From the NCBI RefSeq assembly GCF_016918855.1, contig NZ_JADKYB010000013.1, positions 62,001 to 126,000 of the forward strand: a stretch of DNA of 64,000 bases, written 5' to 3'. The notes under the pieces were generated by a model. It made no database searches and was not told the DNA's origin. It saw only the letters and a list, made by a program, of their open reading frames with translations. This DNA comes from Actinacidiphila acididurans (lineage in GTDB: Bacteria > Actinomycetota > Actinomycetes > Streptomycetales > Streptomycetaceae). This document shows, piece by piece, positions 5,662-29,846 of this stretch; the first letter of the stretch is position 1; each line of letters starts with the position of its first letter. The position numbers were made by a program, and so were the translations under genes.

Positions 5662-6031
5662 GCGTCCCACGCTAAACCGCGGCCCCCGCCCGGGCGTCCC
5701 CCGGCCGCGGGCGGTACGCCTACTCCGCCGGGAGTACGAAGCGGCTCCGCGACGGATACCCCAGGGGCGCGGGGCTGTACGGGTACACGGCCGGCGCCGC
5801 GTGGGCGCGACCGGCCCGGTCGGATGTCGACGACCCTCCCGCGCAGGTCGTGAACAATCCGTCCTCGATATCGTACGGACACATCCGCCTCAGCAATGTC
5901 TCCGGGATCAGGAGATTGATCGGAAACCTCTTACTTGTCGAAATCCATTGCGGACTTGACGGAATAAATGGTTGCGGATTGACCGCCGCAGACCCCCGAG
6001 GTTGGATTCCAGCACGAGATCGGGGGAACCA
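5662..6031. other. Intergenic upstream region of the nucleotidyltransferase operon
   Basis: This 370-bp gap is noticeably AT-richer from about 5840 onward than the flanking genes. It contains the direct-repeat element at 5948-5984 and a strong SD (CGGGGGAACC) before the 6032 start. A 61-codon open frame (5850-6035) ends in an ATGA overlap with that start, but it has a weak SD and no recognisable features, so I do not call it a gene. Confidence 0.6.
5948..5984 (+). promoter_or_regulatory. TTGAC-N18-TTGAC direct repeat, promoter of 6032 operon
   Basis: TTGCGGAcTTGAC (5948-5960) and TTGCGGATTGAC (5972-5983) form an extended direct repeat. The TTGAC cores start at 5956 and 5979, 23 bp apart. The second TTGACC, a 17-nt spacer and TTGGAT (6002-6007) could form -35 and -10 boxes. 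The same 23-bp spacing recurs upstream of 27451 and 29742, which argues for a common regulator. Confidence 0.6.
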
Positions 6032-7378
6032 ATGAACTCGGACAATCAATTTGTCGGTGTGCTATTGGCCGGCGGCCGGGGCGAGCGGGCCAAGCCGCTG
6101 ACCCTCGCCGGGCCCACGTACCTGCGGAGCAAGGCGCTGATTCCGTTCCTCGGCCGGCCGCTCATCGAGTGGACGGTCGAGCAGATCCACGAGCAGGGCG
6201 CGGACGACTTCTACGTCGTCGCGCACGGCCTGGAAAACCGGCTGCAGATCTCCTCGCTGCTGGGGGCCGGAGACCGGCACGGGGTCTCGGTGCGGTACTC
6301 GCGGACCCGGCTGGACCGCTACAACACCGGTTCGGGCGCGGCGACACTGCACAACATCGAGGCCTGGGACCTGACCGGCGACGCCCTGGTGCTGCCGGTC
6401 GACTCGGTCGTCGACCTGGACGTGGCCGCGATGCGGCGACGGCACCGGGAGTCGGGCGCGGTGGTGACGGTCGCCGTCGTCGAGCGTCCGGCGGCCGAGG
6501 TGGCCGGCAAGTACGGGACGATGTCGGCCGACGCCGACGGCCTGGTGTCCGAGTTCCTGGAGAAGCCGACCCGCGAGGTCGCCGACCGGCTGGCCCGCGA
6601 GCGCGAGGACCAGGGACTCGGCAGCGCCCTGCCGACCAGCGCGGGCCTCTACCTGGTCGACTGCGCCGCGCTGCGGGACGTGGTCCGGCGGGCGGGGCTC
6701 GTGCGGCGCGGGACGGGGACCCTGGACTGGGGCGGCGACCTGCTGCCCTGGCTGGTCGGCGTCGGCTGCCCGGTGGTCACGCACCCCATCGGCGAGATGG
6801 GCGACCTGGGCAGCGTCCCGGACTTCCTGCTCAGCGCCATCGGTGCGCTCGACGGCCGCTTCCCGCACGTCACACGGGCCCTGGGGCCCAGCCTGGACGG
6901 TGCCTCGGCGGTATGGATCGACCCGACGTCCCTGGCACTGCCCGACCCGCGGACCGGCCTGACGCTGGCCGAGAAGATCGTGACGGGGATGGTCGAGATC
7001 GGTCCCGGGGTACGGATCGGCCGGCACGTGGAGATCGGCCCCGGCGTGCGCCTGGACCATGCCGACCTCGGCGACGGGGTGGACGTGGCCGAAGGCGCGA
7101 CGGTGAGTCGCGCCGTGTGCGCCGACGGCGCGATCGTCGGGCCGCACGCTGTCGTCACCGACAGCTATCTCGGGCCGCTGGTCACCGTCGGCTCGAGCCG
7201 CCGCCGGCCGGCCCGGCTCCAGGCCTTCACCGCGCTCGGCGACGGTGCGGCCGTCCCGCCCGGGATCCGGCTGTCGCAGGTGACCGTCTACCCGGGCCTG
7301 CGCATCCCGCGCGAGGCGCGCGTTCCGGCCGGCTCCCGGCTGGCCAGCGCCCAGGAAGTCCTGGATCTCGCCGGCTGA
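6032..7378 (+). CDS. Sugar nucleotidyltransferase (NDP-sugar pyrophosphorylase) with beta-helix tail
   Basis: Encodes 448 residues. The N-terminal Rossmann-type nucleotidyltransferase domain (about 1-270) starts with VLLAGGRGERAKPLT, a variant of the family signature in which the usual TR is ER but the phosphate-binding glycines and arginine remain. Family activity is NTP plus sugar-1-phosphate giving NDP-sugar plus pyrophosphate. The C-terminal part (about 320-448) has hexapeptide-like repeats (EIGPGVRIGRHVEIGPGVRL), a left-handed beta-helix as in GlgC, GlmU and RmlA-long enzymes. The start is fixed by GGGGGAACCA before the ATG. It is first in an operon with an SDR and an AGE/STAS fusion. 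Product could be ADP- or another NDP-glucose feeding GlgM nearby (inference). Confidence 0.85.
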   Translation: MNSDNQFVGVLLAGGRGERAKPLTLAGPTYLRSKALIPFLGRPLIEWTVEQIHEQGADDFYVVAHGLENRLQISSLLGAGDRHGVSVRYSRTRLDRYNTGSGAATLHNIEAWDLTGDALVLPVDSVVDLDVAAMRRRHRESGAVVTVAVVERPAAEVAGKYGTMSADADGLVSEFLEKPTREVADRLAREREDQGLGSALPTSAGLYLVDCAALRDVVRRAGLVRRGTGTLDWGGDLLPWLVGVGCPVVTHPIGEMGDLGSVPDFLLSAIGALDGRFPHVTRALGPSLDGASAVWIDPTSLALPDPRTGLTLAEKIVTGMVEIGPGVRIGRHVEIGPGVRLDHADLGDGVDVAEGATVSRAVCADGAIVGPHAVVTDSYLGPLVTVGSSRRRPARLQAFTALGDGAAVPPGIRLSQVTVYPGLRIPREARVPAGSRLASAQEVLDLAG

Positions 7379-7415
7379 CAGCGGCCGGGAGCTCCGCAGC
7401 CACGGAAGGGGGAAC

Positions 7416-8117
7416 ATGATGAACCGTGTTGTGGTGATCGGGGGTGGAGGCCGGCTCGGCCGGCTGCTCGTCGGGGCTCTGGCCCGCCGGGGAGCGCAGG
7501 TCGAGGTGGTCAGCAGACAGCCCGCCGCGACCCGGCACCGACTGCCGCGCGGAGTCGGCGTGCACGGCGGCGACGTGCGCGACGCCCGGTCCCTGACCGG
7601 GCCGCTGGCCGGGTGCGGCGCCGTGGTCTTCGCGGCCGAGACCGGCTTCGCCGACGACGGTCCGGACAGCCCGCGCGCCACCCTCTACGAAGGCGTGGCC
7701 AACACCGTCGATGCCGCACGCACCGGAAGCAAGGCGCCCCGCGTGCTCCTGGTCAGCCAGATCTGCGTGACCCGGCCGGAGCATCCGACCAACGCCTACG
7801 GCCGGCTGCTGGACTGGCGGCTGGCCGGCGAGGAGGTGGTGCGCGACTCGGGGCTGCCGTACACCGTCGTGCGCCCCGGCTGGTTCGACGACGCCGCCCG
7901 GCACGGCGGCATCCGGCTCGACCAGGGCGACGCCATGAACGGCTTCATCCGCCGCGAGGACTGCGCCGAGACCATCGCCGAGGCGTTGGCGAGCCCGGCG
8001 ACCGTCGGCGTGACGTTCGAGGTCTTCAACGAACCGGCGCCGGCGGCCGCGGCCGGGGTCCACGACTGGCCGGCCATGTTCGGCGCGCTCGACGCCGACC
8101 TGGACCCGGTCCGGTGA
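7416..8117 (+). CDS. NAD(P)-binding SDR-like protein (atypical, NmrA/epimerase type)
   Basis: Encodes 233 residues. The glycine-rich nucleotide-binding motif VVVIGGGGRLGRLLVGAL is at the extreme N-terminus, and a basic residue after beta-2 (VVSRQ) suggests NADP(H). LLVSQICVTRP takes the place of the usual serine region, and YTVVRPGWFDD is the C-terminal hallmark of NAD(P)H-binding atypical SDRs. A canonical YxxxK pair is not obvious (NAYGRLLDWR), so it may be a reductase, epimerase or nucleotide-sensing protein. SD AAGGGGGAAC precedes the ATG. It is 37 bp after the nucleotidyltransferase gene and 98 bp before the AGE/STAS gene, so probably co-transcribed. Confidence 0.8.
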   Translation: MMNRVVVIGGGGRLGRLLVGALARRGAQVEVVSRQPAATRHRLPRGVGVHGGDVRDARSLTGPLAGCGAVVFAAETGFADDGPDSPRATLYEGVANTVDAARTGSKAPRVLLVSQICVTRPEHPTNAYGRLLDWRLAGEEVVRDSGLPYTVVRPGWFDDAARHGGIRLDQGDAMNGFIRREDCAETIAEALASPATVGVTFEVFNEPAPAAAAGVHDWPAMFGALDADLDPVR

Positions 8118-8215
8118 GACCTCCGGCGCACCGCGCGGGCGCCCCGGATCCGTCGGGGTCCGCTGTCCGCGCGGGCGCGGTGAACTCCTGAGGGTTGTAG
8201 AAAGGTGACGCAAAA

Positions 8216-10408
8216 ATGGCCAACCCATCGCCACGACTGACCTTTTCCGACACGCTTGCCGGTTACATCACTTCCTCGGACCCCGCGCGGCGCCGTTTCG
8301 AATTACGGACCGCCGACGGACGGCGGCACACCGTCGAGATCGCCGAGAACGCCGCGGCGCGCATCGTGCGCAACCTCGGCGAGGACTACCGCGACTGCAG
8401 CCACCGCCTGATCGACATGCTCGCCGAGGGCCGCTTCGTCTACGTCTACGCCATCTTCTACGAAGACCCCTCCGGGGTGGTCATCGAGGGCAAGGAGCTG
8501 ACGTTCCCGGAGGAGGATCGCGGCGTCTACGTGTTCGAGGACCCCGACTGGTGGCTGCGGCAGGTGACCGAGGTCGCCGATTTCTACCTGCGCGGCCATT
8601 TCCCCGACGGCAAGTACGACTGGCGGAAGTTCCGCACCAAGCTGACCCTGGCCGGCACCCACCTGCCCGAATTCGGCGGCCAGGACGTGCGGCAGGAGAC
8701 CGACACCATCTCCCGCCTCGTCTACGGCCTGGCGACCGCGTACCTCATGACCGGCAAGGAACGGTTCCTGGAGGCGGCCGAGACCGGCACGGACTATCTG
8801 CGCACCCAGATGAAGATCCACGACGCCGCCGCCGGGATCGCGTACTGGTACCACGGCATCGACATCACCGCGGCCGGCGACCGCAAGGTCCTGGCCTCGG
8901 AATTCGGCGACGACTACGACGCCATCCCCATGTACGAGCAGATATACGCGCTGGCCGGGCCGGTGCAGACCTACCGGGTCACCGGCGACCCGCGGATCGC
9001 CGAGGACCTGGACCAGACGCTGGCCCTGTTCCGCGAGCACTTCGCCGACCCGGTGCACGGCGGGTTCTTCTCCCACCTGGACCCCGTGGCGCTGGACCCC
9101 AAGGCCGACAAGCTGGGCCGCAACCGCGCCCGGAAGAACTGGAACTCCATCGGCGACCACGCCCCGGCGTACCTGATCAACGCCTTCCTGGCCACCGGCC
9201 GCCGCGACCTCGCGGACATGCTGGAGCAGACCGCCGACGCGATCGTGGCGCACTTCCCGGACGAGCCGGACAGCCCGTTCGTCCAGGAGCGATTCCACGA
9301 GGACTGGAGCCCGGACCGGAGCTGGGCCTGGCAGCAGGACCGGGCGGTGGTCGGCCACAACCTGAAGATCGCCTGGAACCTGACCCGGATCGCGGCGCTG
9401 CGGCCCAAGGCCGCGTACGGCGATCTGGCCCGGCGGCTCGCCGAGACGATGCCGGAGGCGGGATCCGACCTGCAGCGCGGCGGCTGGTACGACGTCGTCG
9501 AGCGCACGGCGTCCCACGGCCCGGCCGGGCACCGCTTCGTCTGGCACGACCGCAAGGCCTGGTGGCAGCAGGAGCAGGCGATCCTGGCCTACCTGATCCT
9601 GGCCGGCACCGGCGGCGACCCCGAGCACCTGCGGCAGGCACGGGAGTCCGCGTCCTTCTACAACGCGTTCTTCCTCGACCACGACGACGGCGGCGTCTAC
9701 TACAACGTGCTGGCGTCCGGGCTCCCGTACCTGCTCGGCAACGAGCGCCTCAAGGGCAGCCACGCGATGGCCGGCTACCACTCGGTGGAGCTGTGCTATC
9801 TGGCCGCGGTCTACACCGGACTGCTGCTCGGGCGGCATCCGCTGACGCTGCATTTCAAGCCCACGCCGGACTTCCTGCCCGGACGGCAGCTACGGGTGGC
9901 GCCGGACCTGCTGCCGGCCGGGCAGGTGCGGCTGGACGCGGTATGGGTCGACGACCGGCCCTGGCACGACTACGACCCGGAGGCCATGATCGTCAACCTG
10001 CCGGCCGGCGACCGGCCGACGCGCGTGCGGGTCATGCTGGTGCCCTCGACCATGCGCACGCATCTGACCGGCGACACCGACGGGAAGACCGCGCACGTCC
10101 ACGTGCGCGGCCCGGTGGGGGACGAGGAGCTGGGCCGGTTCCGGCGCGTTCTGGACTCGGCGCTGAGCGGGGATCCCGAGCGGGTCGAGGTGCACCTGGA
10201 GCGGGTGAACGCGATGTGCCGGCAGGCGGTCAACGAGTTGCTGGTGTCCCGTTCCAAGGCGCGGCTCGGCACCGAGTTCGCGATCGCCGGAAGCGCGGCG
10301 CCGCAGGTGGCGCTGGCGCTTGCGGCCACCGACGCCTTCGTGCTCGACCTCGACGTCGTCGAGGTGGGTGCCGCACTGCTGCCGGGTGACCGCGGCCCGA
10401 GCCGGTGA
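8216..10408 (+). CDS. AGE-family sugar epimerase/isomerase fused to a C-terminal STAS-like domain
   Basis: Encodes 730 residues with three parts. Residues about 1-115 form a separate N-terminal domain (DTLAGYITSSDPARRRFELR and DMLAEGRFVYVYAIFYED) that I cannot name. Residues about 150-555 resemble the alpha6/alpha6 barrel of N-acylglucosamine 2-epimerase and related aldose-ketose isomerases, with VVGHNLKIAWNL, WWQQEQAILAYL, GGVYYNV and GSHAMAGYHSVELCYL; the family histidines are kept. Residues about 624-712 read as a STAS/anti-sigma-antagonist-like fold (HVHVRGPVGDEELGRFRRVL). AGE enzymes alone are near 400 residues, so this is an unusual fusion. A relic of its N-terminal domain lies at 28984-29313. 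Substrate unknown. Confidence 0.75.
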   Translation: MANPSPRLTFSDTLAGYITSSDPARRRFELRTADGRRHTVEIAENAAARIVRNLGEDYRDCSHRLIDMLAEGRFVYVYAIFYEDPSGVVIEGKELTFPEEDRGVYVFEDPDWWLRQVTEVADFYLRGHFPDGKYDWRKFRTKLTLAGTHLPEFGGQDVRQETDTISRLVYGLATAYLMTGKERFLEAAETGTDYLRTQMKIHDAAAGIAYWYHGIDITAAGDRKVLASEFGDDYDAIPMYEQIYALAGPVQTYRVTGDPRIAEDLDQTLALFREHFADPVHGGFFSHLDPVALDPKADKLGRNRARKNWNSIGDHAPAYLINAFLATGRRDLADMLEQTADAIVAHFPDEPDSPFVQERFHEDWSPDRSWAWQQDRAVVGHNLKIAWNLTRIAALRPKAAYGDLARRLAETMPEAGSDLQRGGWYDVVERTASHGPAGHRFVWHDRKAWWQQEQAILAYLILAGTGGDPEHLRQARESASFYNAFFLDHDDGGVYYNVLASGLPYLLGNERLKGSHAMAGYHSVELCYLAAVYTGLLLGRHPLTLHFKPTPDFLPGRQLRVAPDLLPAGQVRLDAVWVDDRPWHDYDPEAMIVNLPAGDRPTRVRVMLVPSTMRTHLTGDTDGKTAHVHVRGPVGDEELGRFRRVLDSALSGDPERVEVHLERVNAMCRQAVNELLVSRSKARLGTEFAIAGSAAPQVALALAATDAFVLDLDVVEVGAALLPGDRGPSR

Positions 10409-10416
10409 GCCACCGC

Positions 10417-10464
10417 ACGGCCCGGGCGGCCCGCGCGCCTGAAGCGCCGGGCCGCCCGGGCCGT
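10417..10464. terminator. Strong terminator after the AGE/STAS gene
   Basis: A 17-bp stem (10417-10433 with 10448-10464, sequence core CGGCCCGGGCGGCCCG) ends the plus-strand operon. Confidence 0.85.
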
Positions 10465-10481
10465 CGGCTTCCCGCCTGCGT

Positions 10482-10509
10482 CGGCCCCGATCAGCCCTGA
10501 TCGGGGCCG
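10482..10509. terminator. Second hairpin, between convergent genes
   Basis: CGGCCCCGATCAG (10482-10494) pairs with CTGATCGGGGCCG (10497-10509). With the hairpin just before it, this separates the plus-strand operon from the minus-strand hydrolase gene. Confidence 0.75.
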
Positions 10510-10572
10510 TACGCGTGGCCGGCACGGTGGCCGGGGTCGGTTCGGTCCGGGCTTGCGGCCGACGGCGGCGTT

Positions 10573-11139
10573 TCAGCCGAGCAGCTCCCGGACCAGCCGC
10601 AGCGCCTCGGGCAGTTCCGGGCGCGTCGAGCCGTGGCTCGGGAAGTGGCCGCCGTCGGGCATGAGCAGGACCCGGGCTCCGAGCTTCCCGGCGAAGATCA
10701 TCATGTGCTCGGGGACGCGGGCGCCGGTGACCGGGTCGTCGACGGCGTGCAGCACCCGGGCGCCCCGCACGGCGGCGCGGATGCGCGGCCAGTCGAATCC
10801 CGGAGTGTAGAAGCCCTTGAGGTGCGAATAGCCGAGGTCGCCGGCCATCGAGGCGACCAGGAGCAGGCCGCGGAAGGGGCCGTGGGCCGCGACGTCATGG
10901 TTCTGCAGCAGCCGCAGCAGCGCGACGCCGCCGAGGCTGTGGCCGACCAGGACGGTGTCGGCCGGCGCGGCAGGCAGCGCGGTCTCAATGGTCTTCTGCC
11001 AGCCGTGGGGGTCAGGCTCCGCGGGGAGTGCCGGCACGGCCACCTCGTGCCCGTCGGCGCGAAGCCGCCCGGCGAGCCAGGGATACCAGTTGCCTCCCGG
11101 TGATCCGTTGACGCCGTGGCTGATCAGTACCCCGCCCAT
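10573..11139 (-). CDS. Small alpha/beta hydrolase (RBBP9/YdeN-like)
   Basis: Encodes 188 residues. The nucleophile elbow GHSLGG (about residues 68-73), an aspartate in the VLHAVDDPVTGARVP strand and a C-terminal histidine in GGHFPSHG give a full Ser-Asp-His triad. Size and layout match the RBBP9/YdeN serine hydrolases. The ATG at 11139 follows AGAGGATCGGCC. It is last in the minus-strand block and separated from the VOC gene by a hairpin at 11195-11223, so it may be expressed partly independently. Substrate unknown; an ester or lactone is a reasonable guess. Confidence 0.82.
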   Translation of the reverse strand: MGGVLISHGVNGSPGGNWYPWLAGRLRADGHEVAVPALPAEPDPHGWQKTIETALPAAPADTVLVGHSLGGVALLRLLQNHDVAAHGPFRGLLLVASMAGDLGYSHLKGFYTPGFDWPRIRAAVRGARVLHAVDDPVTGARVPEHMMIFAGKLGARVLLMPDGGHFPSHGSTRPELPEALRLVRELLG

Positions 11140-11194
11140 GGCCGATCCTCTCAATCATGACGATAACGTTGTGTTTTGCTGCAAGATGACACGT

Positions 11195-11223
11195 AACCGG
11201 CCCCGCCGTCGACGGGGCCGGTT
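11195..11223 (-). terminator. Hairpin after the VOC gene
   Basis: AACCGGCCCCG (11195-11205) and CGGGGCCGGTT (11213-11223) form a perfect 11-bp stem just downstream of the minus-strand VOC gene. Confidence 0.75.
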
Positions 11224-11238
11224 CCGTGAATCGCCGGT

Positions 11239-11697
11239 TCAGGACAGCTTCGCCAGTTCGGCGGGGTCCTGATCGCGGTAGCCCTGGCTGACCTCCACGA
11301 CCACACCGTCCGGATCGCTGACCCACACGGTCTTCCAGCCCGGGATGTACTCGTCGAAGCCCGCTGGGCCCAGGGTGATCGGCAACCGGCCGTCGGCGGC
11401 CGCCAGGAAGGCGTCCACGTCGTCCACCTGGAAGGCCAGGTGCCGCGCCAGGCCCGGCTGCCGCGGACCGTCGTCCTTCGCCTCGAAGGCGGCCTCGGCG
11501 TCGGTGCCGAACAGCTCCAGGTAGACATCGCCGCGCCGCAGGAACACGACCCGCCAGCCGTCTCCGGCGACCACCCGGGCCCGGCGGAAGCCGAACCAGT
11601 CGCGGTAGAACGCCTCGGTCGCGTCCTGGTTCCGGCAGTTCAGACCGACGTGCGACCAGCGGACCGTGCGCAGGACCGGGGCATCGGCAGCACTCAT
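11239..11697 (-). CDS. VOC-superfamily (glyoxalase/bleomycin-resistance fold) protein
   Basis: Encodes 152 residues with two beta-alpha-beta-beta-beta modules. Likely metal ligands sit at the positions usual for the family: His in WSHVGLNCRN, Glu in DVYLELFG, His in ARHLAFQVDD and Glu in GVVVEVSQGY. VOC enzymes are metal-dependent isomerases, dioxygenases, lyases or drug-binding proteins. The start is 2 bp after the stop of the upstream NTF2-fold gene, so translation is coupled. It is probably a tailoring enzyme of the cluster; the reaction is not inferable. Confidence 0.82.
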   Translation of the reverse strand: MSAADAPVLRTVRWSHVGLNCRNQDATEAFYRDWFGFRRARVVAGDGWRVVFLRRGDVYLELFGTDAEAAFEAKDDGPRQPGLARHLAFQVDDVDAFLAAADGRLPITLGPAGFDEYIPGWKTVWVSDPDGVVVEVSQGYRDQDPAELAKLS

Positions 11698-11699
11698 GG

Positions 11700-12080
11700 T
11701 CAGGCCCCCTGCGGCTGCTGGATCGGCGCGAACGGCACGCTGTCGTGGAAGTTCGCCATGTACGTGATGCGCCCGTCCTCGATCCGGAAGTAGTTGCACA
11801 CCCCGGCCTCGATGCCGGCGCCGGAGTGGGTCCGGGCTGTGATCGTGGAGATCACCGCCGCCTGCACGCCGTCGATGACCACGTGCACCGGCTTGTTGGC
11901 GAACACGGCGAACGTCTCGGGGAAGCCGCGCATCATCTCGCGCAGCGGCCCGATGCCCTCGACGTGCCCGGCCAGTTGCTCGTCCATCACCAGGTCCTCG
12001 GCGAACAGGTCGCACCAGGCGTCCCAGTCCCCGGCGTTGGCGAGTTCGTAGTAGCGGTCGACGACTTCCTTGATGTGCAT
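11700..12080 (-). CDS. NTF2-fold (SnoaL-like) protein
   Basis: Encodes 126 residues. It has the pattern of a cone-shaped NTF2 domain: N-terminal helix VVDRYYELANAGDWDAW, then FAEDLVMDE and the C-terminal strand block YFRIEDGRITYMANFHDS. SD CGGGAGGATTCCC precedes the ATG. Such proteins are isomerases, cyclases or dehydratases, or catalysis-free binders. It is one of three NTF2-fold genes in this operon. Confidence 0.8.
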   Translation of the reverse strand: MHIKEVVDRYYELANAGDWDAWCDLFAEDLVMDEQLAGHVEGIGPLREMMRGFPETFAVFANKPVHVVIDGVQAAVISTITARTHSGAGIEAGVCNYFRIEDGRITYMANFHDSVPFAPIQQPQGA

Positions 12081-12175
12081 GGGAATCCTCCCGTCTGTAA
12101 AGGGGTCGATCACTGGCATGGATCGCCGGCCCGCATGACCGGCCTGGATGAACGGCATCGGTCACCGAGGGCGGA

Positions 12176-12610
12176 TCACTCGGGGTCGGTCCAGCCCGGC
12201 AGCGGGTAGCCCATCTGCCCCAGCAGGCTCAGCAGGTCGTCGACCGCCCAGCGCTCGGCGAACCGGTCGCCGTCGAACCGCCAGATCTCGTGCGTGTACC
12301 AGCTGAGTTCGGCGCCGGTCGGCTCGATGCCCAGGAAGGTGCCGACATGCCGGCCGGTCAGTTTGATCCGGGTGTAGACCCGGTCGCCGGCACCGACCAC
12401 GTCCTCCGGTTCGGCCCGCATGTCCAGCGCGGTGATGACGGCGGCCAGGTTGCGCCGGTAGACATCCAGGCCGGTCACGTCGACCAGGCCCGGGTGGTGG
12501 TCGGTGAAGTCCGCGGTGAGCACATCGTCGAGGCGCTCGTACTCGCGGCGGTTGAACAGGTCCGCGAAGGCCAGGTACAGCTTCGCTCCGGAGTCGTCGG
12601 ACAGCGCCAT
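12176..12610 (-). CDS. SnoaL-like polyketide-cyclase-fold protein
   Basis: Encodes 144 residues. LYLAFADLFNRREYERLDDV, FTDHHPG and DRVYTRIKLTGRHVGTFLGI are typical of the SnoaL/ester-cyclase branch of NTF2-fold proteins, including the conserved DHHPG turn and the GRH strand; the C-terminal ERWAVDD supplies a usual acidic residue. The ATG at 12610 follows GAGGGGAGCGG. It lies 29 bp after the second GMC gene. With no PKS in the window, its substrate is unlikely to be a polyketide made here. Confidence 0.8.
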   Translation of the reverse strand: MALSDDSGAKLYLAFADLFNRREYERLDDVLTADFTDHHPGLVDVTGLDVYRRNLAAVITALDMRAEPEDVVGAGDRVYTRIKLTGRHVGTFLGIEPTGAELSWYTHEIWRFDGDRFAERWAVDDLLSLLGQMGYPLPGWTDPE

Positions 12611-12639
12611 CGCGCCGCTCCCCTCGTGGTCGGAATGTT

Positions 12640-14199: not shown

Positions 14200-14202
14200 G
14201 GC

Positions 14203-20715: not shown

Positions 20716-20754
20716 GTACGGCTCCGGGGCGCGTGATCCGCCCCGGAGCCGTAC
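20716..20754 (+). terminator. Terminator after tetR
   Basis: GTACGGCTCCGGGGCG (20716-20731) and CGCCCCGGAGCCGTAC (20739-20754) form a perfect 16-bp stem with a 7-nt loop. Confidence 0.88.
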
Positions 20755-20819
20755 CCCGCCCCGTATCCAGGAATCGGGCTTCGCCGACCCGCGAAGTGCC
20801 GACTGATTCGGAGGCGTGC

Positions 20820-21653
20820 ATGAGCAAGCGAATCCTGATCGTCCTGTCCGAGTACGGATACTGGGGCGAGGAGCTCATCGGCCCGCTGGAGGTCTTCCAG
20901 CGGGCAGGCTACGAACTGACGTTCGCCACCCCCACCGGCAAGCGCCCTGTCGCGCTGCCGCCGAGCTACGACCCGAACTACATCGACCCGCCGCTGGGCC
21001 GGTCGGTGACCACCCCGGAGATGGCCGACAAGGTCCGGGCGGTGGAGGCCTCGGACCTGCTGGACCGGCCGGTCGACCTGAATTCCTGGCTGCCGGACCG
21101 GCCCTACCGCAGCGACCCGGACTTCCTGCGCGCCTGGGAGGCCTACAACACGCTGCTGGACCAGGTCCGGGCGGACATCGCCGGGCGCTACGACGCGCTG
21201 CTGATCGTCGGCGGCAGCGGGCCGATCGTCGACCTGGCCAACAACTGGCGGGTCCACGACCTGATCCTGGCCTTCCACGACCTGGACCGGCCGATCGCCG
21301 CCGAGTGCTACGGCATCACCGCGCTGGCCTTCGCCCGCGACCAGGACTCCCGGGTCAGCATCCTGCGGAACAAGCACGTCACCGGACACTGCATCGAATA
21401 CGACTACAAGGACGGCACCGGCTTCATGGGCACCGACTTCGTGATCGGCCCGCCGCCGTACCCGCTGGAGTACATCCTGCGCGACGCCACCGCCCCGGAG
21501 GGCGCCTACCACGGCAACTTCGGCAAGGAGACGTCGGTCATCGTCGACTACCCGTTCATCACCGGGCGCTCGACCCCGGACTCGTACCTGACCGGGGAGA
21601 AGACCGTCGAAGTGCTCGAACAGGGCCTGCGCACATGGGGCTTCAAGGCCTGA
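20820..21653 (+). CDS. DJ-1/PfpI-superfamily protein (Hsp31-like)
   Basis: Encodes 277 residues. ILIVLSEYGYWGEELIGPLE begins the fold, YDALLIVGGSGPIVDL is the central strand, and the nucleophile-elbow Cys is in RPIAAECYGITALAF (Cys near residue 163). The larger size with an insertion (residues 55-110) resembles the Hsp31/glyoxalase III branch rather than compact PfpI proteases. Members hydrate or isomerise reactive carbonyls, deglycate, or hydrate isonitriles. The ATG at 20820 follows GGAGGC. It is first of five same-strand genes running to GlgM. Confidence 0.82.
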   Translation: MSKRILIVLSEYGYWGEELIGPLEVFQRAGYELTFATPTGKRPVALPPSYDPNYIDPPLGRSVTTPEMADKVRAVEASDLLDRPVDLNSWLPDRPYRSDPDFLRAWEAYNTLLDQVRADIAGRYDALLIVGGSGPIVDLANNWRVHDLILAFHDLDRPIAAECYGITALAFARDQDSRVSILRNKHVTGHCIEYDYKDGTGFMGTDFVIGPPPYPLEYILRDATAPEGAYHGNFGKETSVIVDYPFITGRSTPDSYLTGEKTVEVLEQGLRTWGFKA

Positions 21654-21698
21654 TCCGCGCCCGCCACCAGCGTCCCCGCATCCGCCCAGGAGGCATCC

Positions 21699-23369
21699 AT
21701 GTCCGATTTCCGGCCCGCGCGCGTCGCGCTGTTCGAGCAACTGCGCGCCGACGGGGTCCCGTTCCTGGTGGGCAACCCCGGCACCGTGGAGCAGGGGTTC
21801 CTCGACGAACAGCGCAACTTCTCCGACGTCGGCTACCTGCTGACGCTGCACGAGGCGGCGGCGGTCGGCATCGCCGACGGTTACGCCCGCGCCACCCGCC
21901 GGCCCGGCGTGGTGCAGTTGCACAGCGGCGTCGGGCTGGGCAACGGGATCGGCATGCTCTACCAGGCGATGCGGGGCCACGCGCCGCTGGTGGTCCTGGT
22001 CGGCGAGGCCGGCCTGCGCTACGAGCCGTTCGAGGCGCAGATGGCCGCCGATCTGGTGGGCATGGCCCGGCCGGTGACCAAGTGGGCGACCCGGGTCACC
22101 GACCCGAACTCGACACTGCGGGTGCTGCGCCGGGCCTACAAGACGGCCGCGACGCCGCCGTACGGACCGGTGCTGGTGGTCCTGCCGGCCGACGTCATGG
22201 ACGGCAGGACCGACGAGCCCGCCGTGCCCACCACCGTCCCGGACACGGCGGGCCGGCCCTCGGCCGCGGCGATCGGCCGGGCGGCGGCGCTGCTGGCCTC
22301 GGCGCGGCGGCCGATCGTCATCGCCGGGGACGGCGTGCACTTCTCCGGCGCGCAGGAGGAACTGGGCCGGCTGGCGACCCTGTGGGGCGCGCGGGTCTGG
22401 GGGGCGGACTGGTCCGAGGTGAACCTGGCGGCGAGCCATCCGGCGTACGCCGGGCAGCTCGGCCACATGTTCGGCGCCGCCAGCAGCGCGATCACCCGGG
22501 AGGCGGACGCGGTGCTGATCGTCGGGACCTACGTCTTCCCCGAGGTGTTCCCGGCCGGCGCGGGGGTGTTCGGCCCCGGCGCGCCGGTGGTGCACATCGA
22601 CCTGGACACCGACGCGATCGCCAAGAACTTCCCCGCCGACGTCGGGATCGCCGCCGACCCCAAGCAGGCACTGCGCGCCCTGGCCGACGCGCTGCTGCCG
22701 CGCATGTCGCCCGGGCACCGCTCGGCCGCCGCCGCGCGGATCGCGGCGATGACCGCCGACAAGCGCGCCGCCGAGCGGAGCGGCCGGGGCCCGGCCGCGG
22801 CCCCCGACGGCACGCTGCACGCCTCGCTGTTCGGCGCCGAACTGGCGCGCCGGCTGCCTGCCGACGCGATCCTGTTCGACGAGGCGCTGACGATGTCGCC
22901 GGACATCTTCCGGTACCTGCCGGCCGACGTGCCCGGCCGGTGGATGTCCACCCGCGGCGGATCGCTGGGCGTCGGCATCCCCGGCGCGATCGGCGCCAAG
23001 CTCGCGCGTCCGGACGCCACGGTCGTGGGCTTCACCGGCGACGGCGGCAGCCTCTACACCGCGCAGGCGCTGTGGACGGCGGCCCGCTACGACATCGGCG
23101 CCAAGTTCGTGATCTGCAACAACGGCTCCTACCAACTCCTGCGCGACAACATCCGGCAGTACTGGCGGGAGCAGGGCATCGACGAGCACGCCCTGCCGGA
23201 CATGTTCGACCTGACCCGGCCCCGGATCGACTTCCCGGCACTGTCGCGCTCCCTCGGGGTGCCGGCCCGCCGGGTCCTGGCGGCGAGCCACGTCGGGCCG
23301 GCCCTCGATGAAGCCCTGTCCACCCCCGGCCCGTTCCTGATCGACCTGGTCGCCTCCGCCGGGCGGTGA
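21699..23369 (+). CDS. Thiamine-diphosphate-dependent enzyme (benzoylformate decarboxylase/ALS-like)
   Basis: Encodes 556 residues with the usual three domains: Pyr (about 1-180; FLVGNPGTVEQGFLDE, and the activating Glu in TLHEAAAVGIADGYARAT), a central domain (about 195-340), and a PP domain (about 375-540). The cofactor motif GDGG begins near residue 447 and ends in NNGSYQLL. The N-terminal pattern is closest to MdlC-type decarboxylases. Expected chemistry is decarboxylation of a 2-oxo acid or carboligation. It sits between two DJ-1 genes with short gaps, suggesting the three work on related reactive carbonyl compounds (inference). Confidence 0.87.
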   Translation: MSDFRPARVALFEQLRADGVPFLVGNPGTVEQGFLDEQRNFSDVGYLLTLHEAAAVGIADGYARATRRPGVVQLHSGVGLGNGIGMLYQAMRGHAPLVVLVGEAGLRYEPFEAQMAADLVGMARPVTKWATRVTDPNSTLRVLRRAYKTAATPPYGPVLVVLPADVMDGRTDEPAVPTTVPDTAGRPSAAAIGRAAALLASARRPIVIAGDGVHFSGAQEELGRLATLWGARVWGADWSEVNLAASHPAYAGQLGHMFGAASSAITREADAVLIVGTYVFPEVFPAGAGVFGPGAPVVHIDLDTDAIAKNFPADVGIAADPKQALRALADALLPRMSPGHRSAAAARIAAMTADKRAAERSGRGPAAAPDGTLHASLFGAELARRLPADAILFDEALTMSPDIFRYLPADVPGRWMSTRGGSLGVGIPGAIGAKLARPDATVVGFTGDGGSLYTAQALWTAARYDIGAKFVICNNGSYQLLRDNIRQYWREQGIDEHALPDMFDLTRPRIDFPALSRSLGVPARRVLAASHVGPALDEALSTPGPFLIDLVASAGR

Positions 23370-23399
23370 CCCGGCGCGCCTGTCAACAAGGAGGTCAGC

Positions 23400-23986
23400 A
23401 TGCTGCTGTCCGGCCACAGGATCGCGATCCTGATGGAGAGCGATTACTTCGAACCCGAGATCTTCTACTACAAGCAGCGCTTCCCGGAGGAGGGTGCCGA
23501 GGTGCACTTCCTGAGCCGGCTGTGGGGCCACGACCGGCTCACCTTCAAAGGGCACGAATACGGTCTGCCGTTCGAAGTTCACGAGTCCTTCGAGGACATC
23601 GACGACTCCACGCTGCGCGGCTACTCGGCGGTGATCGTCCCCTCGGGGATCGTCGCCGACCGGCTCCGCTACACCGAGAACCCCAAGGCGATCCCGCCGG
23701 CGACGGCGTTCCTGCGCCGGGCGTTCGCCCACCGGAACATCGTCAAGGGCATCATCTGCCACGGCATGTGGCTGGCCGCGCCGATCCCGGAGTCGGTACG
23801 CGGACGGCGCGCCGTCGTCCACAACAACCTGCTGGGCGACTTCGCCAACATGGGCGGGAAGTTCGTGGACCAGGACGTCGTCGTCGACGGCGACCTGATC
23901 ACCGCCCGCACCGCCGAGGACGCCAACCGCTTCGCCCGTACCGTCATCGACCAGATCGCGGCCCGCAACCCGGCCGGGGGGCGGCC

Positions 23987-23990
<4 letters not shown>
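23400..23990 (+). CDS. DJ-1/PfpI-superfamily protein
   Basis: Encodes 196 residues, the compact PfpI size. IAILMESDYFEPEIFYYKQR starts the fold, the acidic residue of the triad lies in that segment, and VKGIICHGMWLAAP carries the Cys-His nucleophile elbow (Cys near residue 120). SD CAAGGAGGTCAGC is excellent. The last codons overlap the GlgE gene (GTGA at 23987-23990), so translation is coupled. Reaction not identifiable; glyoxalase-like, hydratase-like or deglycase roles are all known in the family. Confidence 0.85.
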
Positions 23991-26031
<2,041 letters not shown>

Positions 26032-26032
<1 letters not shown>

Positions 26033-27258
26033 TGCGTGTGGAACTGCTGACCCGTGAGTATCCGCCGCACGTCTACGGCGGCGCGGGGGTCCATGTCACC
26101 GAACTGGCCGCGGCACTGCGCGACCGGATCGGTCCGGCCGGCCCCGGCGCCGCCGGCGGCCCGGGCGGTCCCGGCGGCCTCGCCGACGTCACGGTGCGCT
26201 GTTTCGGACCGCCGCGCCCGGAGCCGTGGGTGGTCGGCTACCCCGAGCCTGCACTCGACCTCGGCATGGCACTGCGGACGCTCGCCGTCGCCGAGCGGAT
26301 CGCGGCCGACGCCGGCGCAGCCGACGTCGTGCACAGCCACACCTGGTACGCCAACGCCGCCGGCCACCTGGCGCAACTGGCGCACGGCGTCCGCCACGTC
26401 GTGACCACGCACAGCCTGGAGCCGCTGCGGCCGTGGAAGGCCGAGCAGCTCGGCACCGGCTACGCGGTGTCGCGCTGGATCGAGCGCTCGGCCGTCGAGG
26501 CGGCCGACGCGGTGATCGCCGTGTCCGAGGCGATGCGGCGCGACGTCCTCGCGGTGTATCCGCGGGTTAGGGCCGAACGGGTGCACGTCATCGGCAGCGG
26601 GATCGACACCGAGTCCTTCCGGCCCCAACCGGGCACCGAAGCCCTGGTCGCCGCCGGCGTCGACCCCGCACGGCCGTACGTCCTCTTCGTCGGGCGCGTC
26701 ACCCGGCAGAAGGGCCTGGCCCACCTGCTGGCCGCCGCCGAACAGCTGCTGCCCGGCACCCAGCTGGTGCTCGTCCTCGGCGCCGCCGACACCCCGCGGA
26801 TCGCCGCGGAGACCGACCGGGCCATCGCGGACCTGGCCGCCTCGCCGGTCACGGTCGTGCCGATCCGGCGCTTCGTCGACCGGCGCTCACTGTGCCAGCT
26901 CCTGACGCACGCGGTGGCCTTCGTCTGCCCGTCGCTGTACGAGCCGCAGGGCATCGTGAACCTGGAGGCGATGGCCTGCGGCACCGCCGTGGTGGCGACC
27001 GCGGTCGGCGGGATCCCGGACGTGGTCGTGGACAAGGAGACCGGGCTGCTGGTGCCGTTCGCCGCGGGCGACGACGCCACCGGTGAGCCGCGGGACCCGA
27101 CGGCCCTGGCCGGGCGGCTGGCGGAATCCCTCAACACCCTGATCGACGACCGCGATCTCGCTCGTGAGCTCGGAACGGCGGGTCGGGAGCGGGCTGTTGC
27201 GGAATTCTCCTGGAAGGAGATCGCCGGACGGGTGACCGAGGTCTACGCAAGCCTGTAG
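26032..27258 (+). CDS. glgM: GT4 glycosyltransferase, GlgM-type (maltose-1-phosphate synthase/glycogen synthase)
   Basis: Encodes 408 residues. LLTREYPPHVYGGAGVHVTE is the N-terminal hallmark of the actinobacterial GlgM group; FVGRVTRQKG and the EX7E motif (EPQGIVNLE) in SLYEPQGIVNLEAMACGT define GT4. In mycobacteria this enzyme makes maltose-1-phosphate from ADP-glucose and glucose-1-phosphate, which is the donor for GlgE. A Gly/Pro/Ala-rich insert (about residues 39-53) is unusual. The nucleotidyltransferase at 6032 might supply NDP-glucose (inference). Last gene of the coupled operon. Confidence 0.88.
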
Positions 27259-27297
27259 GACCGCCGGAGCGACGCCCGATATCCCCGGGGCCAATTC

Positions 27298-27312
27298 GAT
27301 CAATTCTTGATC
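27298..27312. other. Short hairpin after glgM
   Basis: GATCAA (27298-27303) and TTGATC (27307-27312) are a 6-bp inverted repeat in an AT-rich patch between glgM and the peptide promoter. It could be an attenuating hairpin or a binding site; the evidence is only the symmetry. Confidence 0.35.
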
Positions 27313-27357
27313 TCCGGGCGGCGGACCCGGGCCCCGGGAATTGTTTCCGGGCCGCCG

Positions 27358-27427
27358 TTGACTGCATCGCCGCACTGGTGTTGACTCCCCCTCTGAGATG
27401 CAAAATTCTCACGTGAAATCACTGTGA
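27358..27427 (+). promoter_or_regulatory. Promoter region of the small peptide gene
   Basis: TTGACT at 27358-27363 and again at 27381-27386 are 23 bp apart, the same spacing as upstream of 6032 and 29742. The second could be a -35 box; the -10 is unclear, with AATTCT at 27404-27409 the best placed. TCACGTGA (27409-27416) and TCACTGTGA (27419-27427) are adjacent small palindromes close to the likely transcription start. The segment is markedly AT-rich for this genome. Confidence 0.6.
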
Positions 27428-27450
27428 ATTATTGAACGGGGGACTCAATT

Positions 27451-27597
27451 GTGGAGGCTGGACTCCGATTGATTGTGGCCTGCGCGCTGGCCGCGGCGGC
27501 ACTCTTATCACTGGTCGGTGACTTGTCGCCGCAGGGCCACCACCCGTACCCGACGATTGGCGTCGGCCTGTACGGCAACACCGAGGCCTGCTGCTGA
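27451..27597 (+). CDS. Small peptide with hydrophobic leader and Cys-Cys C-terminus
   Basis: A 48-codon gene from a GTG, preceded by GAACGGGGGACTCAATT, the same SD style as 6032 and 7416. The product has a short charged N-terminus (MEAGLR), a hydrophobic stretch at residues 7-23 (LIVACALAAAALLSLVG) and a 25-residue polar tail ending in YGNTEACC that includes two adjacent His and PYP. It could be a secreted or membrane-anchored signalling peptide, or a modified-peptide precursor; no RiPP maturase is visible. It has its own upstream repeat element and a 15-bp-stem terminator, so it is an independent transcription unit. I know no homologue. Confidence 0.7.
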   Translation: MEAGLRLIVACALAAAALLSLVGDLSPQGHHPYPTIGVGLYGNTEACC

Positions 27598-27606
27598 GGA
27601 TCGACA

Positions 27607-27639
27607 GCGGCGCCCTCCCCGCACCGGGGAGGGCGCCGC
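27607..27639 (+). terminator. Terminator of the small peptide gene
   Basis: GCGGCGCCCTCCCCG (27607-27621) pairs with CGGGGAGGGCGCCGC (27625-27639), a perfect 15-bp stem with a 3-nt loop, beginning 10 bp after the peptide stop codon. Confidence 0.88.
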
Positions 27640-27709
27640 CCCATTCCGCTTCGATCTCGCGCCGGGTGAACTCGGGATATCACCGGTGGAGTTCTTTGCG
27701 CATCGAAGG

Positions 27710-28987
27710 TCAATAACCTTCATCGGCCCGGGCCATGGCCAGCAGGCCGAAGCCGAAAGCCACGGACGCCAGTGTGACGTGGTGGTGCCAGCCACGGAAG
27801 GAGCGGCCCTCGAAGTCCTGGAGTCCGGCCGTTCGCAGCATTTGCTCGAGCGCGGAGCGGGACGAGTCGCCGAGCTTCGCCAGCCCCACGACTCCTGCCG
27901 GCTGGCGGGTGTCGAGATTCGTGAACCAGTAGTTCCGCGGCCGGTCCCGCCCCGCTGGCCACTCCATCAGCAACCATCGCGGCTGGCGCAGCGAACGAGG
28001 GCCGCCTGAGGACTCCGAGGCGAGGCAGCTGAGGAACTGGGTCTGCCGCAACCGCGGCGGATCGCCCTCGCGCCAGGCCACGGTGGTGTGTTTCGTCCGC
28101 CCCTGGGCCTGGCGCCCCAAGTCGTACGCGGTCGACAGCCGCCCGCCCGCATGGCGGCCTACGGCCGACCGTATCCCGGTCGAGCTGTCGATCCGCACCA
28201 GGTACCCCAGGCCGCGTTCCTCGAACCCGCGCAGAAGGTCATCGAGGCCCTCGTCGGGGAACCGCCGCCAGTCCACGAGCACCGGGCGCGGTGACAGTGC
28301 CCAGTCCACCAGCAGTTCGTCCACCAACTGGAGCCCGTACTGCCAGTCCGGAAGGTGGCGCGCCTCGCTCGGCACGTGCGCGCAGGTTCTGCGTTTCGCG
28401 TCCTGGTCCCACTCGGCGGGGAGCATGAGCTGCCAGTCCACCGGCACGGCGCAGCCATCGCCCACCAGCGAGGCGGCCATGCCGAGCTGGCAGTTCAGCA
28501 CTTTGCCGTCGGCGGCCGAGTACTGCCGGGACACCCCGACCGAACATTTCCCGGTCTTCGGGAAGGCCACGGTGTCCAGGGCCCAGGCGCGCACGGGGAG
28601 CGAGGCGGCGCACGCTCCGGCGAGCCGGCCGAGAACCTGGAGGTGGTCCCACGGACTCTGGTTCACGAACTGCTGGAGCTGTGCGACCGCGGGCTTGCCG
28701 ACGATGTGTTCCGATATCCGCGCCGGAGTCTTGCGCCCCGGCACGGTCAGCAGCCCCCGCACGTAGACCTCGGCCCAGGCCCGCTGGTCGGAGCGCGGCA
28801 GCTCGGAGAACAGATCCCGGCAGTACTCGGCGAGCAGGCCATCGGCTTCGCCGCCTCGGACGTTGAGTTCCCGCAGCAGCGCCCCTGCGGGGGACCGCCG
28901 GCGCCTGCCGGGCTGTCTGCTGTTCCGGCCGGCTTCGCCGTGCGTTCCGGCACCTCGGAGCTCCCGAATTGCGGCGGCGGCGCTCAT
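27710..28987 (-). CDS. IS701-family transposase
   Basis: Encodes 425 residues, about full length for the family. Hallmarks are WAEVYVRGLLTVPGRK near residue 65, NQSPWD, the first Asp in AWALDTVAFPKTGK, SVGVSRQYS, the second Asp in PVLVDWRRFP, and FEGRSFRGWHHHVTL with the terminal Glu, so the DDE triad appears intact. Flanking terminal inverted repeats were not recognised. The ATG at 28987 (after GGGGGGTGCG) overlaps the stop of the relic reading frame upstream (ATGA). It marks a rearranged cluster flank. Confidence 0.88.
   Translation of the reverse strand: MSAAAAIRELRGAGTHGEAGRNSRQPGRRRRSPAGALLRELNVRGGEADGLLAEYCRDLFSELPRSDQRAWAEVYVRGLLTVPGRKTPARISEHIVGKPAVAQLQQFVNQSPWDHLQVLGRLAGACAASLPVRAWALDTVAFPKTGKCSVGVSRQYSAADGKVLNCQLGMAASLVGDGCAVPVDWQLMLPAEWDQDAKRRTCAHVPSEARHLPDWQYGLQLVDELLVDWALSPRPVLVDWRRFPDEGLDDLLRGFEERGLGYLVRIDSSTGIRSAVGRHAGGRLSTAYDLGRQAQGRTKHTTVAWREGDPPRLRQTQFLSCLASESSGGPRSLRQPRWLLMEWPAGRDRPRNYWFTNLDTRQPAGVVGLAKLGDSSRSALEQMLRTAGLQDFEGRSFRGWHHHVTLASVAFGFGLLAMARADEGY
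27710..28987 (-). mobile_element. IS701-like insertion element, ends undefined
   Basis: The transposase gene occupies nearly all of the presumed element. No convincing inverted ends or target duplication could be read by eye within about 100 bp on either side, so only the coding extent is given. It adjoins the truncated AGE/STAS relic directly, which suggests insertion or recombination at this point. Confidence 0.6.
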
Positions 28988-29313
28988 CGCACCCCCCGCG
29001 GGTACTTTCCGGGTTCCTCGGATTCCGGCACGGGTCCGTCCTCCAGCCGTGTCCGGGAGACGGAGCGGCCCTCGGCGAGCATGCCGAGGGCCGCATGGCC
29101 GGTATCCCGGTGACTGGTATTCCGGTACTCGTCGCCCGGTTTGCGGACGGCGCGCGAGACCCGTTTCTGCGTCCCCCCGACGGTGTGTCGGCGGCAGTCG
29201 GCGGTACGCGGGCCGAAACGGCGCCCGGCGGGAGAACAGTGGATGAGGTATCCGGCCGAACTGTCGGATAAGGTGCGGCCGGTCTTGTGGTCTGAGATCA
29301 TCTGTTTGGTCAT
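28984..29313 (-). pseudogene. Degenerate copy of the N-terminal domain of the AGE/STAS protein
   Basis: In the minus strand an open frame of 109 codons aligns with residues about 8-75 of the 8216 gene product. Matches include SDSSAGYLIHCSPAGRRF against SDTLAGYITSSDPARRRF, RTADCRRHTV against RTADGRRHTV, and MLAEGRSV against MLAEGRFV; by eye about half of 68 positions agree, with one five-residue insertion. DNA similarity is also direct (shared CATGCTCGCCGAGGGCCGCT). Everything beyond about residue 75, including the epimerase and STAS parts, is missing. The frame ends overlapping the transposase start. A decayed paralogue is the simplest reading. Confidence 0.75.
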
Positions 29314-29505
29314 CTGCTCGGTCAGCTTTCTGGCGAAATTCTGGCGAAGTGCGCATGGGTGCTGGAACCGCGCCCGTGGGCGCTGGGGCTTGACGCATCC
29401 CTCGGGGCCAGGTCCGGCGGACGCCGGCGCGGCCGTCGGCACGGTGTGACCGTGACGGCTCATGGCCGGGTGACCCGGTGCCGGATCAGGGGCCGGTGTG
29501 CGGCA

Positions 29506-29742
29506 TCAGCCCACTCGTGCGGAGTCCGTGCCCCGGCAGGTCGTGACCTGCGGACTTTCCGGCCCGGTGGCCACACCGCGCAGGTCCGCGCAGCGCCGCC
29601 CCGGACAGACGCGCCCCGGCGCGGACTTGCGCCCCGTCGTGGACTTGTCGCGCCGTCGCCGAGGGCAGTCGCCCCCGGGCGTTCGGCTCGGCCCCTTCCC
29701 CCGGCCGCCTGCCAGAACGATCGCAGCATTACGGTCAGTCAT
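29506..29742 (-). pseudogene. Possible relic of a nucleotidyltransferase start
   Basis: The minus-strand frame from ATG 29742 begins MTDRNAAIVLAGGRGKG, which matches the nucleotidyltransferase signature at the start of the 6032 product (VLLAGGRGER) and of GlgC. No similarity is visible after about 20 residues; the rest of the 78-codon frame is low-complexity Arg/Gly/Pro. The match is short, but position and direction fit: it lies upstream of the AGE/STAS relic and downstream of a third copy of the TTGAC repeat, the same order as in the intact operon. Confidence 0.4.
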
Positions 29743-29817
29743 ATGTGGCCTGCACCCCCGACTTCTCAGGCCTTGGCAATTGACTTAGCCATCAGTAGAC
29801 GGTCGCGCCAGCAGGAG

Positions 29818-29846
29818 TGTCAACCGAATCAATGACACTCAGTCAA
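29818..29846 (-). promoter_or_regulatory. Third TTGAC-N18-TTGAC element
   Basis: Read on the minus strand, TTGACT (29846-29841), a 17-nt gap and TTGACA (29823-29818) again have starts 23 bp apart. TTGACA, an 18-nt gap and TCTACT (29799-29794) may form the core promoter. It faces the decayed operon at 29742-28984. Confidence 0.55.

Follow-up and report, generated by a model that had tools for sequence, protein, structure and literature searches.

TTGAC pairs as candidate operators of a TPR regulator linked to Cys-Cys peptide genes in actinomycetes

Introduction

Why do three promoters of one gene cluster in the actinomycete Actinacidiphila acididurans carry the same pair of TTGAC boxes at one fixed distance? 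We addressed this question in a 64,000-nucleotide stretch of its genome (contig NZ_JADKYB010000013.1, positions 62,001 to 126,000; hereafter, the window), which also encodes a regulator with a helix-turn-helix (HTH) domain and a tetratricopeptide repeat (TPR) array, as well as a small peptide that ends in two cysteines. In the reading that we prefer, and to which we assign a probability of roughly 0.6, the TTGAC pairs are operators of this regulator and the Cys-Cys peptide is sensed by it, forming a circuit beside alpha-glucan genes that resembles the RRNPP systems of Firmicutes (Rap, Rgg, NprR, PlcR, and PrgX). The operator part taken alone, that is, that the pairs are sites of the regulator encoded at 29917-31326, is distinctly more secure, and we regard it as probable. 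In Firmicutes and their phages, TPR receptors are known to read peptide pheromones.

Three TTGAC pairs share one spacing

A sequence-only reading of the window had described TTGAC pairs at 5956/5979 and 27358/27381 on the plus strand and at 29846/29823 on the minus strand, all with a start-to-start distance of 23 bp. Coordinates, strands, and spacing were confirmed at all three sites, as was the G that follows the first hexamer (position 7). The G-rich pair said to precede the second TTGAC holds only loosely, the actual bases being GGA, GTG, and CGG. The pattern TTGACNG-N15-17-TTGAC matched the window three times, always with the 23-bp spacing, versus 0.03 matches expected from 100 shuffles. 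The window contains 66 TTGACs (29 and 37 by strand), which form seven pairs no more than 60 bp apart; the spacing of 23 bp occurs three times among them and every other spacing at most once. When 29 and 37 TTGACs were placed at random (20,000 trials), at least three pairs at any single spacing between 5 and 60 bp arose in about 1 of 10,000 trials, and so the result is independent of the post hoc choice of motif.

We then weighed whether the sites could be three descendant copies of one segment, or whether their spacing could be a fluke. Sites 1 and 3 do seem to lie in front of two copies of one operon. However, site 2 precedes an unrelated gene, the three upstream regions share no similarity by blastn at an E-value of 0.01, random placement rarely yields such a result, and other genomes keep the same spacing, as described below. 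We consider plain duplication or chance very improbable; chance was rejected on the basis of random placement, whole-genome counts, and homologues.

In the whole genome of 9,687,523 bases, TTGAC-N18-TTGAC (any base at position 7) is found only five times, and three of these matches fall within a single 24-kb cluster. The other two both lie on contig C29 (G000:C29:7240 and G000:C29:57325 (L099)). The scan suggested by the sequence-only reading, with the N15-17 pattern, gave 11 matches in the genome compared with 5 for a reversed control. The eight matches outside the window have a spacing of 22 bp in one case, 23 bp in one, and 24 bp in six. Across 35 genomes of the genus, the 23-bp form with G at position 7 gave 37 matches versus 52 for the reversed control, indicating that this form is at background elsewhere in the genus. 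The pair is therefore not of random frequency where it was noticed: it stands out in the cluster of the window, but not elsewhere. The same counts led us to reject a genome-wide regulon or promoter class.

A putative doubled operator accompanies the regulator in relatives

Homologous loci were sought with the regulator protein, and not with the motif, in 394 genomes of the taxonomic family of the window (E ≤ 1e-85). A match was found in 28 genomes including the window's own, with 41-46% identity in the other 27. From these 27 genomes we analyzed 28 regulator loci in stretches no longer than 20 kb, with genes called by a custom script. TTGAC-N18-TTGAC was present within 700 bp upstream of the regulator gene in 24 of the 28 loci, that is, in all but L083, L093, L096, and L098. 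On the peptide-side strand of the upstream regions, 28 TTGAC pairs lie no more than 80 bp apart; 24 of them have the 23-bp spacing, and the other four each have a different one.

In the peptide-side promoters, an exact right arm GTCAA follows the first TTGAC in 14 of 23 cases and the second in 22 of 23, indicating that the full operator in relatives, as predicted from these sequences, consists of a pair of adjacent 17-bp palindromes (TTGAC-N7-GTCAA) with an offset of 23 bp. Such a doubled palindrome would suit two HTH dimers on one helix face. A strict form, TTGAC-N18-TTGAC-N7-GTCAA, was detected in 30 of the 394 genomes, namely in 22 of the 28 that encode the regulator versus 8 of the 366 that do not, whereas the reversed control gave 7 hits in the 394 genomes. 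The genome of the window is among the 6 of 28 regulator-bearing genomes without the strict form. The guess of the sequence-only reading that the repeat is a dedicated site, with the 29917 regulator as the protein to try on it, is thus supported by the 24 homologous loci with the pair and by the distribution of the strict form. Its alternative, a special promoter class, is not favored, because the pattern is no more frequent than background in the rest of the genus.

The pair might also be nothing but a promoter, with the first TTGAC as a −35 box and the second as a −10-like hexamer, or with the second as the −35 box. The distance of 23 bp (6 + 17) does match a sigma-70 spacer of 17, and start codons lie 66-93 bp past the first TTGAC. 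Yet the second TTGAC makes a poor −10 box, the pattern does not rise above background elsewhere in the genus, and most TTGACs in relatives have the inverted partner GTCAA, which a promoter would not need. Furthermore, a scan of site 2 (27259-27700) for consensus sigma-70 promoters, requiring −35 and −10 hexamers, A2 and T6 in the −10 box, and a spacing of 16-18, found no match on the plus strand and one on the minus strand. A purely promoter function is accordingly improbable, and the operator site may still overlap the core promoter.

The strict operator also occurs in eight genomes in which the regulator was not matched. In five of them the hit is one conserved site (L120, L122, L123, L124, and L128), located between acyl carrier protein-like and enoyl-reductase-like genes as read by eye; the regulator is absent from these five genomes at the search cut-off. 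No short open reading frame (ORF) ending in Cys-Cys was found within 3 kb at any of the eight loci. A search for related loci in named genomes returned one weak match only.

Two variations were observed in the regulator genes of relatives. At L087, L090, and L097, the HTH-TPR regulator gene is immediately followed downstream by a second copy. L091 (9855-11440) is the second regulator of genome G259; its operator is present and the Cys-Cys peptide is absent, and it faces a thioesterase-like gene (assigned by eye), on which grounds it may serve another gene cluster.

In the window itself, half-sites were scored with a position weight matrix (PWM), since a PWM of the full palindrome fits the window sites poorly. 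The three sites ranked first to third among the half-site matches in the window: site 2 scored 21.6, site 3 scored 20.8, and site 1 scored 16.2, and the next-best score, 8.3, overlaps site 1. Given the conservation in the family and the location of the sites, we infer that the regulator of the window reads these reduced sites. A weaker third repeat, TTGGAT, occurs at 6002, again 23 bp beyond the second TTGAC of site 1. A lone TTGAC lies at 31342 on the minus strand, just 5' of the GTG start of the regulator gene at 31326, and is possibly a half-site for self-control.

A Cys-Cys peptide gene accompanies the regulator

On one side of the operator in the relatives stands the regulator gene, and on the other a divergent gene of 46-61 codons, whose start is 66-89 bp past the first TTGAC. 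The encoded peptides have an export-like N-terminus (judged by hydrophobicity only), a variable middle part, and a C-terminal Cys-Cys. Among 484 short ORFs (40-65 amino acids, with a ribosome-binding-like sequence) in the 28 loci and the window, 24 end in Cys-Cys, and all 24 are this peptide gene. The exact site precedes 23 of them, L083 being the exception; the peptide gene of L087 is present too and was missed by the ORF filter. Altogether, the peptide gene lies beside the regulator in 24 of the 28 family loci.

We extended the search to the class with a profile of 19 regulators (296 genomes, E ≤ 1e-70). Matches were found in 47 genomes including the window's own, giving 48 other places, for 39 of which (loci of other taxonomic families) longer stretches were analyzed. 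In these 39 loci, ORFs that end in Cys-Cys and contain a hydrophobic stretch made up 33 of the 690 short ORFs within 700 bp of the regulator, versus 1 of 4289 elsewhere; for the Cys-Cys ending alone, the numbers were 34 of 690 versus 5 of 4289. A Cys-Cys peptide was found within 700 bp of the regulator in 31 of the 39 loci, in divergent, convergent, or same-strand layouts. As for the other eight, L165 ends at a contig edge, and L173, L176, L187-L190, and L198 have no convincing candidate. The remaining nine class places, analyzed as 4.3-kb loci, all have a divergent Cys-Cys peptide. Similarly, a divergent Cys-Cys peptide was present in 49 of 58 loci that overlap these sets, compared with 8 of 1581 short ORFs with this ending elsewhere, five of which were counted as peptide genes (four second peptides and that of L158).

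Genes next to the pair differ in the other taxonomic families, indicating that regulator and peptide are the constant part. In seven peptides of equal length from family f19, the differences by codon position number 292, 180, and 367, the third position being highest. Across 57 peptide genes, the codons used at the Cys-Cys ending suggest, but do not prove, selection on it at the protein level. At f19 loci L168 and L171 (also at L142, L148, L149, and L150), a second export-like peptide that ends in Cys-Cys but has a different C-terminus is encoded on the opposite flank of the regulator gene, as though a single receptor were served by two peptides.

Plasmids also carry the pair. Of 16 plasmid records with a match, six were read. 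On the S. goshikiensis plasmid (L203), a Cys-Cys peptide of 71 amino acids (WP_008741297.1) is encoded just downstream of the regulator on the same strand; on the plasmid of S. sp. NBC_01707 (L204), the peptide gene (WP_331750220.1) is about 1.9 kb away; a Cys-Cys peptide is also present on the Nonomuraea gerenzanensis plasmid (L206). No such peptide was found at plasmid loci L201, L202, and L205. A search of the phylum (295 genomes, E ≤ 1e-50) matched 2 further genomes with no Cys-Cys ORF in their 4.3 kb, and hence gave no evidence of spread beyond the class.

These data raise a broader proposal, which we regard as evenly poised: a class-wide actinomycete signaling family, in which short exported peptides with a C-terminal Cys-Cys and dedicated HTH-TPR receptors would form RRNPP-like pheromone circuits over different local gene sets, alpha-glucan metabolism included, with the 23-bp-period doubled operator in the family of the window. 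If the pairing is a signaling circuit, peptide-TPR communication exists in several families of actinomycetes, which are the chief producers of antibiotics. The circuit would then provide a ligand family (the Cys-Cys peptides), a receptor, and an operator, all directly testable, as well as candidates for what the oligopeptide permeases of Streptomyces import as signals, which is an old question. The operator pattern also offers a route to finding what each circuit controls.

The regulator is compatible with a peptide receptor

The regulator gene starts at GTG 31326, while coding scores prefer GTG 31266. Its product has no other family member in the genome (E-values up to 1e-6) and is probably cytosolic. 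A single-sequence AlphaFold2 model shows a helical array (mean pLDDT 79, pTM 0.69). On realignment (VIA), this model matched RapJ (Z 25.4, 345 residues aligned, root-mean-square deviation (rmsd) 6.3), a peptide-bound phage Rap (Z 24.9, rmsd 5.3), peptide-bound RapF (Z 24.6, rmsd 6.8), and NprR (Z 23.6, 349 residues aligned, rmsd 6.5). These alignments span 330-349 residues, nearly the whole TPR part, and 12 of the best 50 rows of the realignment belong to the Rap/NprR group by our assignment by eye. The modeled TPR fold is compatible with the RRNPP family but not diagnostic of it, because unrelated TPR proteins score equally and the group is missing from the best 50 rows of a Foldseek search, its structures appearing only upon realignment.

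In a profile search of the PDB, PlcR (E 4e-6) and ComR (E 2e-4) were reached through the HTH only and RapJ weakly (E 2e-4), together with many generic TPR and XRE matches, so that the TPR part has no clear sequence relation to the RRNPP family. In NCBIfam, no family scored above its cut-off for two regulators tested, and no match was obtained for two peptides tested. The window regulator scored 31.9 bits against a cut-off of 300 for the TPR protein of the FxSxx-COOH system (NF040586), and 25.1 bits against a cut-off of 75 for the NsdA family (NF053720).

Proposed circuit

Site, spacing, conservation, linkage, and peptide anatomy are read directly from the sequences. The steps of the circuit, from DNA binding and peptide export through processing and import to sensing, and likewise any activation or repression by the regulator, are inferred from them. 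The TTGAC pairs would serve as operator half-sites for the cluster's own HTH-TPR regulator, and the 23-bp offset, about two helical turns, would place two regulator dimers next to each other. The gene at 27451 would produce a prepeptide, whose export and trimming would leave a C-terminal fragment with Cys-Cys at its end. This fragment would accumulate outside and be re-imported by an oligopeptide permease, such as that encoded alongside in some relatives. Once inside, it would bind the TPR domain and alter the grip of the regulator on the operator. The switch would act on the peptide gene itself, as feedback, and on the nucleotidyltransferase-epimerase operon, and probably on the adjoining alpha-glucan genes too.

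Alternatively, the sites may be operators of the regulator while the Cys-Cys peptide is an output, such as a secreted metal- or thiol-binding peptide, a bacteriocin, or a wall factor, that is simply repressed, with the TPR array sensing something else. The linkage of operator and peptide alone gives no sign of a return of the peptide to the cell, two vicinal cysteines at the C-terminus would be suited to metal or thiol chemistry, and permease genes are adjacent in only 9 of the 28 family loci. On the other hand, the pairing of regulator and peptide persists in other families despite changing neighbors, permease genes do stand beside the pair in one genus, and a short gene for an exported propeptide next to a TPR receptor inside the cell is what defines RRNPP circuits according to a survey (PMC10075063). 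We consider the peptide unlikely to be such an output, and retain its sensing by the regulator as the preferred explanation.

Several observations weigh against that explanation. In the window, the sites retain only the left half-sites and the spacing, with no right GTCAA arm, and they score 0.2, −4.2, and −12.2 with the full PWM (window ranks 1, 2, and 5), versus 47-74 for 23 family sites. Duplication of one operon probably gave rise to two of the three sites, the peptide gene is 2.3 kb from the regulator, and no permease gene was recognized in the window. Among the family loci, L091 has the site and no peptide, L083 has the peptide and no exact site, and L093, L096, and L098 have neither; all nine permease loci belong to one genus and include L093, which lacks the peptide. 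Of the 39 loci from other families, only two (L174 and L180) have the exact TTGAC pair next to the peptide gene, so the remaining loci must use other sequences. The nine bases TGCTGCTGA close 47 of 57 peptide genes, with different Cys or stop codons in the remaining 10; the codon evidence that Cys-Cys is conserved as protein is thin for this reason. In the seven f19 peptides, non-synonymous codon differences exceed synonymous ones (377 versus 155). As to the fold, the unrelated TPR proteins APPBP2, APC/C, and MalT rank alongside Rap and NprR in the realignment, and the best 50 of 317 PDB rows from Foldseek (E ≤ 0.001) are designed and eukaryotic TPR proteins, with no RRNPP member. Finally, the loci share descent, and their counts are not independent trials.

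Relation to known systems

Like RRNPP systems, the module has an HTH-TPR candidate receptor adjoining a short propeptide gene, a predicted operator at the propeptide promoter, and a permease nearby in some loci, and its regulator model aligns with the structures of RapJ, RapF, phage Rap, and NprR. It differs in occurring outside the Firmicutes, in peptides that end in Cys-Cys, in a sensing step that is here proposed, and in the divergent TPR sequence. The module is thus best described as RRNPP-like by layout, not as a proven member of that family.

The TPR-type regulators of the NsdA family (NF053720), such as Streptomyces NsdA, are similar in type, but the low family score sets the window regulator apart, and no linked Cys-Cys peptide is known for NsdA. 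BldK of S. coelicolor is reportedly an oligopeptide permease that imports an extracellular signal, and in this respect resembles the proposed import step; to our knowledge, no receptor or operator of the present kind has been described for it.

In the RRNPP survey (PMC10075063), the scan covered Firmicutes and viruses only, and the signals of Actinomycetota are said to be typically enzyme-made small molecules. The literature that we searched on RRNPP systems, HTH-TPR regulators, and actinobacterial pheromones, which included few subscription journals and no preprints and so gives no proof of absence, held no description of the pairing of regulator and Cys-Cys peptide.

Genes around the sites

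Features of the window are compiled in Table 1.

Table 1. Sites and genes discussed in the text (window coordinates)
Feature	Positions	Strand	Remarks
Site 1, TTGAC-N18-TTGAC	5956..5983	+	5' of nucleotidyltransferase gene; ATG 76 bp past first TTGAC
Sugar-phosphate nucleotidyltransferase-like gene	6032..7378	+	first in operon behind site 1
NAD(P)-binding epimerase-like gene	7416..8117	+	operon behind site 1
GlcNAc 2-epimerase-like gene	8216..10408	+	operon behind site 1
PfpI-like, thiamine pyrophosphate (TPP) enzyme, DJ-1-like, GlgE-type, and GlgA-type GT4 genes	20820..27258	+	part of gene set accompanying the regulator in relatives
Site 2, TTGAC-N18-TTGAC	27358..27385	+	5' of Cys-Cys peptide gene; start codon 93 bp past first TTGAC
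Small peptide gene (48 amino acids)	27451..27597	+	behind site 2; GTG start, GGGGGA upstream; hydrophobic export-like N-terminus, C-terminal Cys-Cys
Inverted repeat	~27607-27639		blastn self-match; 3' of peptide gene
IS701/DDE_5 transposase-like gene	27710..28987	-	between peptide gene and regulator gene
Putative degenerate operon copy	29059..29742	-	behind site 3; nucleotidyltransferase-like start (ATG ~29742, by eye) and epimerase remnant
Site 3, TTGAC-N18-TTGAC	29819..29846	-	5' of putative degenerate second operon copy
Regulator gene	29917..31326	-	N-terminal XRE helix-turn-helix, C-terminal TPR array; Pfam HTH_3 and several TPR models

Neighboring genes were named by Pfam and NCBIfam, using window proteins and members from L079. 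In the family loci, the regulator is accompanied by genes of alpha-glucan metabolism, namely GlgE (23/28), maltokinase (24/28), GlgB (19/28), and a GlgA-type GT4 protein (18/28), as well as by a TPP enzyme (24/28) and a DJ-1-like protein (24/28); the window holds the TPP, DJ-1, GlgE, GT4, and PfpI members of this set. The GlgE alpha-glucan pathway has been described in Streptomyces (PMC5042117). The families found here include its GlgE, maltokinase, and GlgB, but differ from it in being joined with TPP-enzyme, DJ-1-like, and GlgA-type genes and with the pair of regulator and peptide.

Genes for an OppABC-type oligopeptide permease were found nearby in nine of the 28 loci, eight of which have the peptide. 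According to Pfam (members from L074 and L071), they encode an SBP_bac_5 protein, two BPD_transp_1 permeases (one with OppC_N), and an ATPase with oligo_HPY.

The stretch behind site 3 had been called a decayed copy by the sequence-only reading, and in our view it is a degenerate duplicate of the operon at 6032-10408. The epimerase part of this claim is borne out by tblastn, in which the remnant at 29274-29059 showed 50% identity to the N-terminus of the 8216 epimerase. The nucleotidyltransferase start had no tblastn match at E 0.001, and is a by-eye reading of about ten residues in a three-frame translation.

The transposase-like gene that separates the peptide and regulator genes belongs to a protein family that recurs in 9 of the 28 homologous neighborhoods, in 8 of these 9 alongside permease genes, suggesting that it is a retained element rather than a passing one.

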